This document shows positions 34,054 through 55,054 of a stretch of 64,000 bases of DNA, in pieces; the first letter of the stretch is position 1; every line of letters starts with the position of its first letter. Position numbers and translations under genes: made by a program. A model generated the notes under the pieces. That model had not been told where the DNA came from, searched no databases, and saw nothing but the letters and a program-made list of their open reading frames with translations. The stretch is from Bacteroidaceae bacterium (GTDB lineage: Bacteria; Bacteroidota; Bacteroidia; Bacteroidales; Bacteroidaceae). The stretch covers positions 124,001 to 188,000 of the forward strand of contig JAFTXN010000005.1 in NCBI GenBank assembly GCA_017461605.1. The letters are read 5' to 3'.

Positions 34054-34101
34054 CATAAGCTGTCGGGGGCTTGAGATATGCCACCGCATGGCGCGAATTT
34101 C

Positions 34102-34200
34102 TACAAGGCGTTCTGAAAATTCTGCAAGCACTGCAGAATTTTCAGAACGCCTTGTAAATTTTTGCGGTTTCATCGGGCGTTTTTGGTGCAAAGTGTCAGG
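34102..34200 (+). repeat. Family A hairpin element with conserved tail, upstream of tlpA
   Basis: A perfect 25-bp inverted repeat (34102-34126 with 34132-34156) with loop AGCAC contains the core CTGCAAGCACTGCAG and the arm ACAAGGCGTTCTGAAAATT, and is followed by AATTTTT. The tail GGGCGTTTTTGGTGCAAAGTGTCAGG covers 34175-34200 (key part CAAAGTGTCAGG). It could terminate the dut operon. The 34054-34420 gap otherwise holds the tlpA promoter and no gene. Confidence 0.88.
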
Positions 34201-34385: not shown

Positions 34386-34393
34386 TACATTTG
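34386..34393 (+). promoter_or_regulatory. -7 element of the tlpA operon
   Basis: TACATTTG followed by CACC, 28 bases before the start codon. A TTG at 34357-34359 is rather far (26-base spacing). Confidence 0.6.
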
Positions 34394-34420: not shown

Positions 34421-35296
34421 ATGAAACGTAATTTTCTTGTAATGGCAGTGCTTTTCTTGCTTGCCACAACAGCAGCTTTTGCGCAGCTTCCCTCTGTGAC
34501 GCTAAAGAGTATGGACGGCAAGGAAGTCAATACAGCCACGCTTAACAACGGAGGCAAACCTTTTATCATCAGTTTCTTCGCTACCTGGTGCAAGCCCTGT
34601 AATCGCGAACTCGATGCCATCAATGAGGTGTATCCCGACTGGCAGGAAGAGACCGGTGTGAAGGTAATTGCCATCTCCATCGACCAGGCTCAGAACATCA
34701 ACAAGGTGAAACCTCTGGTCGACGGCAAAGGTTGGGAATACGAGGTGTTGCTCGACCCGAACAGTGATTTCCGTCGTGCGATGGGTGTAAACCTCATCCC
34801 CCATGTGTTCATCATCGACGGCAATGGTAAGATCGTTGAGTCGCGTAGCGGTTACACCGAAGGCGGTGAGGCGCATCTCATCGAGAAAGTGCGCGAGATT
34901 CTTGCGGCCGGTGGCAACGCTGATGTGAAGCCCGCTTGCAAGAACAAGGGTGGCCAGTGCCAAGGCGCAGGTGCCGCTTGTCCCGGTGAGAAGCCCGCTT
35001 GCGGCAATGGACAGCCCGAGTGTAAGGGTGGTCAGCCCGGTTGCCCCGGCGAAAAGCCCGCTTGCAAGAATGGTGATCGCAAGTGCAAGGACGGTCAGTC
35101 CGGTTGTCCCGAAGGGAAGCCTGCTTGCAAGAACGGCGATCGCAAGTGCAAAGAGGGGCAGTGCAAGTGCAAGGATGGCGAGTGCAAGTGCGAAAAGTGC
35201 AAGGGCCAATGCAAGAATGGCGAACGTCAATGCAAGAACGGCGAGCGTAAGTGCAAGGAAGGACAGCAGTGTCCCGAATGTCCTCGTAACAAATAA
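34421..35296 (+). CDS. tlpA: TlpA-type thioredoxin with 21-cysteine repetitive C-terminal tail
   Basis: 291 residues. The start at 34421 gives signal peptide MKRNFLVMAVLFLLATTAAFAQ. Residues 23-163 are a complete TlpA/ResA-like thioredoxin domain: SFFATWCKPCNRE (CKPC at 57-60), cis-Pro127 in LIPHVF, and FIIDGNGKIVE. Residues of about 166-291 are a low-complexity tail with 21 cysteines. It starts with imperfect 21-residue repeats (for example PACKNGDRKCKDGQSGCPEG) and ends in 7-residue repeats (CKNGERQ, CKNGERK). Spacing such as CKCKDGECKCEKC recalls metallothioneins. I infer a periplasmic redox protein that binds soft metals or carries many thiols. First gene of a three-gene operon. Confidence 0.88.
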   Translation: MKRNFLVMAVLFLLATTAAFAQLPSVTLKSMDGKEVNTATLNNGGKPFIISFFATWCKPCNRELDAINEVYPDWQEETGVKVIAISIDQAQNINKVKPLVDGKGWEYEVLLDPNSDFRRAMGVNLIPHVFIIDGNGKIVESRSGYTEGGEAHLIEKVREILAAGGNADVKPACKNKGGQCQGAGAACPGEKPACGNGQPECKGGQPGCPGEKPACKNGDRKCKDGQSGCPEGKPACKNGDRKCKEGQCKCKDGECKCEKCKGQCKNGERQCKNGERKCKEGQQCPECPRNK

Positions 35297-35314
35297 GCCA
35301 TTCACCGAATGACT

Positions 35315-37108
35315 ATGAAACATTTCAAACATACACTTGCGGTGGCAGTCATGCTGACCGCAAGTTTTGCTACTGTATCGGCCCAAGAGCCCGAGGATGG
35401 CAAGAAAGTTACACTTACCGGTAGCGTGCAGAGCGATGTGCTCATACCGCAAGAGGACATCGTCGACGAACAAGGCAATGTGCTTTCCGATGATCCTGTG
35501 ATGACTAACACGTACGTCGAACTCCATGCCCACAGTCGCTACGTCGATGCCGGTGCACGTCTCGAGTTCACCGAGTATCCGCTGCCGGGCTTTGAGAAAG
35601 ATTTCAAGGGCTGGGGCGTTCCTTTCTATTACATTACGGGTAAATACAAGTGGGCCGAGCTCACCGCCGGATGCTATTACGAGCAATTCGGGTCGGGCCT
35701 GATTTTGCGTACCTACGAAGAGCGTTCTCTGGGTGTTGACGGAGCGTTGCGCGGAGGCCGTTTGGCGCTCAAGCCCTACAAAGGCGTCAATCTGAAAGTC
35801 ATTGCCGGACAACAGCGCAACTATTGGGGCGATGATAAATTCTTTGGCGGTTACAACGAAAGCTTTGTATATGGTGGAGACCTCGAACTGAACATCGACA
35901 GATGGAGCAAGCGAATGCAGCAGAGCGGTACGTATCTCACGCTGGGCCTTTCGGCCGTGGCTAAACACGAAGGCAATCCCGAGACACCCATTCTCAGCAC
36001 TCGTCCCACGGGCAACCTCAATCCTGATGGCACTCCCGAAACCGGCGTCTACAGTCTGAACGTTCCCAACAATGTAACTGCGTTCGACGTCCGTGCTTCT
36101 TTGCAAAAGGGCAACTACAACTTCCTGGCCGAATACGCCTGGAAGAGTCAGGATCCCTCGGCCGACAATGCTTACACATTCCATCGCGGAAATGCGCTCC
36201 TGCTTTCCGGTTCTTACTCCAAGCGCGGCATGAGTGTCCTCCTGCAGGCCAAGCGTAGTCAGAACATGGGTTACAGAAGTGCGCGTGCCATCAACGGAGC
36301 CTCTTCTTACCTCAACCATCTTCCCGCATTCTCCATGCAGCACACCTACACGCTGGCTGCGCTTTACCCCTATGCCACCCAATACGGCCGCTTCAGTTCC
36401 AATCAGGCCTTGCAAGTGCCGGGCGAATGGGCGTTCCAAGCTGAGGTAGGCTATAACTTCAAGCGCAAAACTCCGCTCGGCGGTAAGTATGGCACCAACT
36501 TCAAGGTGAATTTCTCGCACATCCGTTCCATTGATTTTGCTCCCGTGGCCCAAAACGAAGTGGTGGGCACAGACGGTTGGAAAACCCAAGTGTTCCAGTC
36601 CGGCAATGGGTTCGGACAGTTCTTCGGTGCCGGTGGCGAAACCTTCTACCAGGACGTGAATGTGCAGATGGAGAAGAAAATTACCAAGGATTGGAAGCTG
36701 AATTTGATGTACATGCACCAGCGTTACAACAAGAGCATAGTGGAAGGCGAAGGGGGAACCATAAAGTCGCACATCGCAATCGCAGAAGCCAAGTGGAACA
36801 TCAACAAGAAGCTCACCCTGCGTGGAGAAGCGCAATACCTGCACACGAAGCAGGACGAGGGCGACTGGTGTTTCGGCTTGCTGGAGCTGTCGGTGCTTCC
36901 CTCACTCATGTTCACCGTGTCCGACCTCTGGAATTGCGGCGAGACGAATACGCACTACTACATGGCACAGGCCACTTACACCCACAAGGCTCACCGTTTG
37001 CAGGTGGGATACGGACGCACTCGCGCCGGCTACAACTGCACGGGCGGTGTATGCCGATTTGTTCCTGAGAGCAAGGGCGTAACCTTGTCTTATAACTTCA
37101 ATTTCTAA
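35315..37108 (+). CDS. DUF6029 outer-membrane beta-barrel-like protein
   Basis: 597 residues; start at MKHFKHTLAVAVMLTASFATVSAQ (an ATG six bases earlier is also possible). The mature protein has alternating aromatic/polar strands (GSYSKRGMSVLLQAKRSQNM, WKLNLMYMHQRYNKSI, LTLRGEAQYLHTK) and ends in SKGVTLSYNFNF, a C-terminal phenylalanine typical of outer-membrane barrels. It matches the DUF6029 family, which I know as a partner of TlpA and Omp28 genes in Bacteroidales. It follows tlpA by 18 bases and precedes the Omp28 lipoprotein by 19. Function unknown. Confidence 0.83.
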   Translation: MKHFKHTLAVAVMLTASFATVSAQEPEDGKKVTLTGSVQSDVLIPQEDIVDEQGNVLSDDPVMTNTYVELHAHSRYVDAGARLEFTEYPLPGFEKDFKGWGVPFYYITGKYKWAELTAGCYYEQFGSGLILRTYEERSLGVDGALRGGRLALKPYKGVNLKVIAGQQRNYWGDDKFFGGYNESFVYGGDLELNIDRWSKRMQQSGTYLTLGLSAVAKHEGNPETPILSTRPTGNLNPDGTPETGVYSLNVPNNVTAFDVRASLQKGNYNFLAEYAWKSQDPSADNAYTFHRGNALLLSGSYSKRGMSVLLQAKRSQNMGYRSARAINGASSYLNHLPAFSMQHTYTLAALYPYATQYGRFSSNQALQVPGEWAFQAEVGYNFKRKTPLGGKYGTNFKVNFSHIRSIDFAPVAQNEVVGTDGWKTQVFQSGNGFGQFFGAGGETFYQDVNVQMEKKITKDWKLNLMYMHQRYNKSIVEGEGGTIKSHIAIAEAKWNINKKLTLRGEAQYLHTKQDEGDWCFGLLELSVLPSLMFTVSDLWNCGETNTHYYMAQATYTHKAHRLQVGYGRTRAGYNCTGGVCRFVPESKGVTLSYNFNF

Positions 37109-37127: not shown

Positions 37128-37922
37128 ATGATACTGAAAAGATTTTTTCCTGTCCTGTTGGGCGTGATGGCTGTGGCAGGCTGTTTTTCTTCTTGCGACA
37201 CCGTCGACGAGGCCGATCGCTGGGAGGGTCCGCTGCCCTTCGAGGTGAGAAAAAATGTTCTCATCGAGGATTTCACGGGTCAGATGTGTCTGAATTGCCC
37301 CCTGGCATCTGAGGAAGTGCACAAGTTGCAGGAAACCTATGGTGCCGAGCATGTCATTGCCGTAGCCATTCACGGTGGTGCGCTCTCCATTTCGAAGGAT
37401 AATAACGGCCTGGCCACCGATGAGGGCAACGCATACGTTTCGCATTGGGGCATCGATGCGTTCCCCAATGGCAAGGTCGATCGCGGAGGTATCCTCGATT
37501 ACCTATCGTGGGGCGGTGCTGTCTACACCCGTTTGCAGCAGATTTCTCCTTTGAGCATCGGGCTTACGGGAAACTACCAAGCCGAAACACGCACATACGA
37601 GGTGCAAGTTTCGCTGACTGCCATGGAAGATGTGGCCGGCAAACTGCAACTTTGGCTGACGGAGGACAACATTACGGGCTTCCAAATAAAACCCGACGGA
37701 AGCAGAGACCGCAATTATGTGCACAACCACGTGTTCCGTCAAACCATCAATGGATTGTGGGGCGACGCTGTGCAGATGTCTGCCGGCAACGAGGGTGTAC
37801 ATACTTACAGCGTGGAAATCCCAGCCGACTATGTTGCTGAGAACATGAACCTTGTGGCCTTTGTCTACAACGACTCCGGCGTGCTCCAGGTGGAGCAGGT
37901 CTCTGTCTGTCCCAAGGATTGA
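37128..37922 (+). CDS. Omp28-family outer membrane lipoprotein
   Basis: 264 residues with lipobox VAGC (Cys19), a minimal Omp28 protein. The thioredoxin-like domain starts at VLIEDFTGQMCLNCPLA (Cys54 and Cys57 form CxxC) and runs to the C-terminus (LVAFVYNDSGVLQVEQVSVC). There is no sorting domain, so it should be lipid-anchored rather than T9SS-secreted. As third gene after TlpA and DUF6029 it may be a redox partner or substrate of the TlpA protein; that is inference from operon order and from both having CxxC motifs. Confidence 0.9.
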   Translation: MILKRFFPVLLGVMAVAGCFSSCDTVDEADRWEGPLPFEVRKNVLIEDFTGQMCLNCPLASEEVHKLQETYGAEHVIAVAIHGGALSISKDNNGLATDEGNAYVSHWGIDAFPNGKVDRGGILDYLSWGGAVYTRLQQISPLSIGLTGNYQAETRTYEVQVSLTAMEDVAGKLQLWLTEDNITGFQIKPDGSRDRNYVHNHVFRQTINGLWGDAVQMSAGNEGVHTYSVEIPADYVAENMNLVAFVYNDSGVLQVEQVSVCPKD

Positions 37923-38005: not shown

Positions 38006-38111
38006 GAAAATCTGCAGTGCTTGCAGAATTTTTTGCAGTGCTTGCAGAAAATTCTAAACGCCGTGTAAATTTTTGCGAACAGAATGCCCGATTTTTTGTC
38101 AAAGTGTCAGG
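38006..38111 (+). repeat. Family A repeat element with conserved tail, upstream of argB
   Basis: Two units CTGCAGTGCTTGCAG are followed by the arm TTCTAAACGCCGTGTAAATTTTTGC (25 bases, same arm as at 43922). The tail GCCCGATTTTTTGTCAAAGTGTCAGG covers 38086-38111 (key part CAAAGTGTCAGG). It is a mosaic of the tandem-unit form and the right half of the long-hairpin form. The 37923-38241 gap holds the upstream terminator, this element and the argB -7 box. Confidence 0.85.
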
Positions 38112-54987: not shown

Positions 54988-55054
54988 AAAACTTACAAGG
55001 CGTTTAGGATTTTCTGCAAGCACTGCAGAAAATCCTAAACGCCTTGTAAGTTTT
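54988..55054. repeat. Family A long hairpin (perfect 31-bp stem)
   Basis: A perfect inverted repeat of 31 bp (54988-55018 with 55024-55054) around loop AGCAC contains both the core CTGCAAGCACTGCAG and the arm ACAAGGCGTTTAGGA. A/T runs at both ends make it a good bidirectional terminator between tatD and the convergent gene at 55108. The conserved promoter-side tail is absent here, where no gene starts. Confidence 0.92.

Follow-up and report, generated by a model that had tools for sequence, protein, structure and literature searches.

A cysteine-array tail on an exported TlpA-like reductase of Bacteroidaceae, and the putative envelope thiol relay encoded beside it

Introduction

Why should an exported thioredoxin-like reductase end in a repetitive array of 21 cysteines? 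The question is raised by a gene in a stretch of 64,000 nucleotides (the window) of contig JAFTXN010000005.1 from a Bacteroidaceae bacterium (assembly GCA_017461605.1). A preliminary description had proposed that the tail of the encoded protein is a metal or thiol buffer kept reduced by the thioredoxin domain to which it is fused. It was silent both on the operon in which the gene lies, whose partner genes DUF6029 and Omp28 encode near-invariant cysteine pairs, and on two further lineages with Cys-rich tails. Here we ask whether the tail is a genuine and constrained part of the protein, where else it occurs, how often it arose, and what the operon suggests about its role.

Results

A TlpA-like protein with a heptad cysteine array

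That the gene encodes an exported TlpA-type protein with a CKPC active site, as first described, is borne out by a signal peptide recognised by eye, by Pfam assignments (residues 22-140, AhpC-TSA, PF00578, 80.8 bits against a gathering cut-off of 26; residues 22-147, Redoxin, PF08534, 69.7 bits against 26.6) and by the solved chain 2m72_A, which aligns with residues 19-164 of the protein, P0001, at E 1e-64 (Table 1). P0001 resembles periplasmic thioredoxins of the TlpA/ResA/DsbE (CcmG) kind in its signal peptide, its AhpC-TSA/Redoxin fold, its CxxC motif and its proline 127, which is invariant in alignment A1 (11 sequences) and is probably the cis-Pro of the fold. Among the NCBIfam models for ResA, DsbE and rhizobial TlpA it falls under every curated cut-off (74.4/170, 45.2/123.15 and 40.4/230, respectively). 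The nearest solved chain, 2m72_A, comprises 156 residues and lacks a Cys tail, whereas P0001 adds one of 127 residues. The tailed gene is present as a single copy in the window genome (2.06 Mb in 10 contigs, 81% complete), and is preceded by the letters TACATTTG, identical in the sister species considered below, which resemble the Bacteroidota -7 element consensus, TAnnTTTG.

Table 1. Positions of the operon, its protein features and the surrounding repeats in the window.
Feature	Position	Strand	Basis
Candidate promoter -7 element TACATTTG	34386..34393	+	resembles TAnnTTTG; putative role from sequence
tlpA-like gene with Cys tail, P0001 (291 aa)	34421..35296	+	open frame, 291 codons + stop
Probable Sec signal peptide, residues 1-21 (..ATTAAFA|QLP)	34421..34483	+	by eye; putative cleavage site
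Thioredoxin-fold (AhpC-TSA/Redoxin) domain and short linker, residues 22-164	34484..34912	+	Pfam; homologue 2m72_A
CKPC active site, residues 57-60	34589..34600	+	C57 and C60 invariant in alignment A1 (11 sequences)
Cys-rich tail, residues 165-291	34913..35293	+	composition count
Unbroken 7-residue lattice of 16 Cys, residues 173, 180, 187 ... 278	34937..35254	+	position count
Denser Cys sub-cluster CKCKDGECKCEKCKGQC (CxC, CxC, CxxC), residues 248-264	35162..35212	+	sequence
DUF6029 family protein P0002 (599 aa), second operon gene	35309..37108	+	Pfam PF19494, E 2.4e-171
CTGGVC pair of DUF6029, residues 577-582, within CxGGVCRxVP near C-terminus	37037..37054	+	both Cys invariant in alignment A2 (11 sequences)
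Omp28 family lipoprotein P0003 (264 aa), third operon gene	37128..37922	+	PF11551, E 3.7e-42; NF033782, 269.9 bits (cut-off 150)
CLNC motif of Omp28, residues 54-57	37287..37298	+	both Cys invariant in alignment A3 (8 sequences)
Intergenic palindromic repeat, core AAAATTCTGCAAGCACTGCAGAATTTT	34092-34166 and 38006-38077		flank operon on both sides
Further copies of the AAAATTCTGCAAGCACTGCAGAATTTT repeat	13993, 20030, 20072, 26192, 43897, 55012

The tail holds 21 Cys in 127 residues (16.5%), together with 23 Lys and 23 Gly, lacks both aromatic residues and His, and carries a net charge of +12 (28 Lys+Arg against 16 Asp+Glu). The 21- and 7-residue repeats reported at first sight were recovered, the heptad being the deeper unit: the underlying DNA repeats with periods of 63, 42 and 21 bp, and the 21-residue units are heptad triplets. 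Among 100,000 shuffled tails the lattice of 16 Cys was never reached (maximum 8), a result that speaks to order and not to selection, since tandem duplication alone yields such a lattice.

Searched against Pfam, the tail matched no family up to E 10, and against solved structures it gave no convincing match (best E 0.13; two matches in the PDB up to E 1, neither a metallothionein). A BLAST search of plasmid and phage sequences with the low-complexity filter on returned no match. Metallothioneins include the bacterial proteins SmtA/BmtA and MymT as well as the animal MTs, and judged from sequence alone the tail is like them in its Cys richness, its lack of aromatic residues and the CxC and CxxC motifs of one sub-cluster; it differs in its Cys share of 16.5%, its mostly C-x6-C lattice, its export and its fusion to a reductase. 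To our knowledge, C-x6-C heptad spacing is not typical of metallothioneins.

Another known class of Cys-rich peptides invites comparison. MNIO-modified peptides (bufferins, HvfA) are exported, Cys-rich and repetitive, and their modifying enzymes belong to family PF05114 (DUF692). The tail, being exported, Cys-rich, Lys/Gly-rich and repetitive, could be such a modified copper-binding peptide carried on a thioredoxin. Against this, PF05114 exceeds its cut-off in none of the 58 genomes of the genus, the four with Cys tails included (one fragment, in G003, lies below the cut-off), in a search that matched 2 of 14 control genomes. As the tailed genomes are 81-87% complete, gaps alone are unlikely to account for absence from all four, and MNIO chemistry therefore appears highly improbable.

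The tail recurs, under constraint, in a sister species

Contig JAFYPU010000006.1 of Bacteroidaceae MAG RGIG7311 from water buffalo cecum (L033) encodes a protein of the same build with 17 Cys in its tail, and genus genome G019 encodes the identical protein. The two species are 94% identical across the columns used for tree inference, and their tails differ by one 21-residue and one 7-residue indel, both multiples of seven, so that the array gains or loses whole units, in agreement with the expansion that the internal repeats had been taken to imply. An array created by sequencing or assembly error would be conceivable in repetitive DNA from an incomplete draft of 10 contigs, and the exact copy number of units could be off. 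The frame is nevertheless open throughout, and a separate public assembly of another species reproduces the array with fewer units, which makes an artefact scarcely credible; the tail is thus also present in a close relative.

Substitutions between the two species distinguish the cysteines from the rest of the tail. Of the 99 codons that can be aligned, 20 have changed the amino acid, all of them among the 82 non-Cys codons (20/82) as against 0/17 at Cys codons; sparing of all 17 has a hypergeometric p of 0.014 (Fisher, 0.020), a modest value from a single species pair. Domain and tail have similar synonymous divergence (dS 0.63 and 0.67, respectively), and dN is 0.012 in the domain, 0.145 in non-Cys tail codons and 0 in the 17 Cys codons, giving a dN/dS of 0.17 for the tail, below 1. 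Judged by these codon comparisons, the tail is a translated, constrained sequence.

Cysteine tails are rare among TlpA relatives

To place the tail among its relatives, we collected 213 loci with a hit, of which four were dropped (partial or below 35% identity), leaving 175 distinct proteins. Four have at least 9 tail Cys, all in one genus, while 3 have a single tail Cys and 168 have none. The expectation that TlpA domains normally end after the fold thus holds, with 171/175 proteins having 0-1 tail Cys, and because these relatives lack a Cys tail we regard the tail as dispensable to core function. The remaining tails of at least 10 residues (n = 27) have a high content of Lys, Ala and Glu, with 0.3% Cys. 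The four Cys tails belong to the window genome (G000, 21 Cys), G019 (17), G028 (11) and G063 (9).

Several wider searches frame these counts. Six peptide patterns, of which the tail supplied three, were run against 84,980 species genomes, a set that possibly excludes the window genome; they gave 10 confirmed loci, with full query coverage in L033 only. Two overlapping family samples yielded matches in 85/301 and 105/398 genomes, all of which were read, one locus (G351) being cut by a contig end. At order level (201 genomes with a match) no Cys tail was found in the 43 stretches read among the matches listed, these being listed matches with open frames of at least 199, plus some others. Weak hits to the tail alone in G022, G074 and G075 were attributed to chance, the three frames of the fetched strand containing no Cys-rich repeat frame. 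In the open-licence literature we found no paper on a TlpA protein with a Cys tail among the matches listed; the Cys-array tail on TlpA would therefore be the new element, the domain, the gene order and Cys-rich metal ligands being of known kinds.

Within the genus, a TlpA orthologue was identified in 35/58 genomes, with thresholds that differed across searches and with one hit at 30% identity (G073) left out of the count. Of the 23/58 genomes without an orthologue at the thresholds used, some are more than 90% complete (e.g. G006, G011 and G031), and the operon is accordingly patchy in the genus.

Dissimilar tails occupy three places on the tree

On a tree of the TlpA domain and DUF6029, the four tailed sequences require at least three changes. 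Placing all four tails in a single clade is rejected by the AU test (p 1e-33) on a 35-row tree, from which six rows were omitted as long or distant (G065, G005, G004, f1g27_G083, f22_L035 and f1g32_G088), the one-clade group having been set by trait after a 41-row tree, which also forces three changes, had been inspected. When labels were shuffled, 53 of 500 replicates needed as few changes, meaning that the tail label is neither more scattered nor more clustered than chance.

The tails themselves differ in construction. In the window lineage the repeat unit spans 21 bp, encoding 7 aa; the corresponding lengths are 45 bp and 15 aa for G028, and 27 bp and 9 aa for G063. With the window tail as query, neither of the latter two tails is found at E 0.001. 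Spacing differs as well, as does net charge, which is +1 and -3 in the other two, and what the three types have in common is richness in Cys and Lys, with no shared geometry. From the three tree places and three dissimilar repeat units we conclude that the origin or turnover of Cys-rich tails was a repeated event; the placements could represent three gains or, for example, one gain with losses in the adjacent G028 and G063 clades, around which gains and losses are hardest to separate. The recurrence suggests that Cys richness itself is under selection in these tails, and, because tails of dissimilar spacing and charge recur, the number and density of cysteines, rather than one fold, appears to matter.

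In the same tree, the operon sequences of six genomes that carry the label of the window's genus (G061, G064, G012, G008, G009 and G071) group with other genera, which may reflect movement of the operon between genera or heterogeneity of the genus.

The main rival to a selected array is non-adaptive repeat birth, in which slippage at a Lys-rich gene end would create in-frame arrays that happen to hold Cys and are tolerated as ballast. Repeat periods in multiples of 21 bp, short Lys-rich ends in other relatives, the rarity of the tails (4/175) and the fast evolution of non-Cys tail sites relative to the domain are all as this process would predict. It accounts poorly for three dissimilar arrays that are all Cys-rich (9-21 Cys) when the 27 other tails are not, for the retention of 17/17 Cys between sister species and for a tail dN/dS below 1, and such arrays, if useless, would be expected to carry a cost in an exported protein; we consider it doubtful. 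A tail that cross-links or anchors the reductase, its cysteines forming disulfides with envelope or surface partners, would find some encouragement in the many cysteines and in the positive net charge of the window protein. The near-neutral or negative charge of the other two tails argues against it, and the fused reductase would be expected to reverse such cross-links, making this reading very unlikely.

The tail is fused to a component of a conserved three-gene operon

The gene order TlpA - DUF6029 - Omp28 on one strand, as found in the window, is widely conserved. DUF6029 and Omp28 lie behind TlpA in 33/34 genus loci read (counting G022, where Omp28 is cut by a contig end; in the remaining locus, G033, the contig ends), and in a set of 60 loci from the family, the order and in some cases the genus, DUF6029 was detected 57 times and an Omp28-like match 51 times, counting a broken frame in L104. 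In Bacteroidota, DUF6029 and Omp28 (PF19494, PF11551) commonly occur in this order with a tail-less TlpA.

Both partners carry conserved cysteine pairs. The motif CxGGxCR occurs within the last 60 residues in 86/87 DUF6029 sequences (not de-duplicated), and its extended form CxGGVCRxVP is near-invariant across Bacteroidota and one Chlorobiota-labelled MAG. P0002 is probably an outer-membrane barrel, in which this motif might, by strand order, occupy the last loop. Likewise, a CxxC motif (mostly GQxCxNCP) lies within residues 21-120 in 75/76 Omp28 sequences (not de-duplicated). The Omp28-like frames of L187, L190, L113 and L114 are 616-689 residues long against the usual ~265, which suggests extra domains. 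For DUF6029-like barrels, a role in polysaccharide export is suggested in PMC9603273. DUF6029 itself appears in one paper among the matches listed from the open-licence literature; no established function of DUF6029 or Omp28 was found in the open-licence literature among the matches listed.

Beyond the operon, the upstream genes encode a TPR-like protein, a 303-residue protein and an M23 peptidase, and those downstream resemble, by eye, acetylglutamate kinase and a U32-type peptidase. No metal-related gene was seen by eye among the neighbouring frames (the M23 protein was also scanned against Pfam). A protein of the DsbD transmembrane family (DsbD_TM) is encoded elsewhere in the window genome and is a possible source of reductant for the CKPC domain.

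The operon is flanked on both sides by an intergenic palindromic repeat with the core AAAATTCTGCAAGCACTGCAGAATTTT, of which the window contains 7 copies within 3 mismatches, compared with 0 in shuffles, and one more, longer, at 55012. At E 0.001 the repeat is confined to G000 and G019 among the 58 genus genomes (29 and 28 matches, with 15 scored in each from 158 and 212 first-look candidates, respectively). As far as these 58 genomes indicate, the family is a REP-like burst confined to the heptad-tail lineage.

The conserved pairs raise the alternative that the tail is a flexible redox arm, whose cysteines would bridge the periplasm, handing disulfides or electrons on from CKPC to the DUF6029 and Omp28 pairs, and would not store metal. 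Tethering of the tail to the reductase, cysteine pairs in both partners and the presence of the operon at 33/34 genus loci read are consistent with this role. The operon is nonetheless common with a tail-less TlpA, and therefore no arm is needed there; nor do the three tails share a geometry. We judge a redox arm rather unlikely.

Discussion

Our tentative preference, which we hold at slightly short of an even chance, is that P0001 would serve an outer-membrane thiol relay as its reductase and carry a tethered thiolate buffer, for metal, thiols or both, which its own thioredoxin domain would keep reduced. The exported TlpA/ResA-like reductase (CKPC), the DUF6029 barrel (CxGGVC) and the Omp28 lipoprotein (CxxC) would together form an envelope thiol relay, in which DsbD-type electrons would reduce CKPC and CKPC in turn would keep the cysteine pairs of DUF6029 and Omp28 in the right state. 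The flexible Cys-array tail, presumably gained in this lineage, would act as a tethered thiolate store, taking up soft metal (Cu(I), Zn) or oxidants beside the relay, and the thioredoxin domain would reduce the tail's disulfides, either in cis or in trans.

A bolder reading, possible though on balance not likely, is that this envelope reductase is a hot spot on which Cys-array tails have repeatedly been born from different microrepeats, each yielding a self-reducing, metallothionein-like "thiol capacitor" that would serve an undescribed thiol relay (TlpA - DUF6029 CxGGVC - Omp28 CxxC). If this is right, selection for Cys richness itself would have been satisfied repeatedly by dissimilar repeats built on one protein, and the tailed lineages would offer natural replicates for studying what role a thiol array plays in a gut bacterium's periplasm. 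DUF6029 and Omp28, a widespread pair, would then constitute a redox-controlled outer-membrane system.
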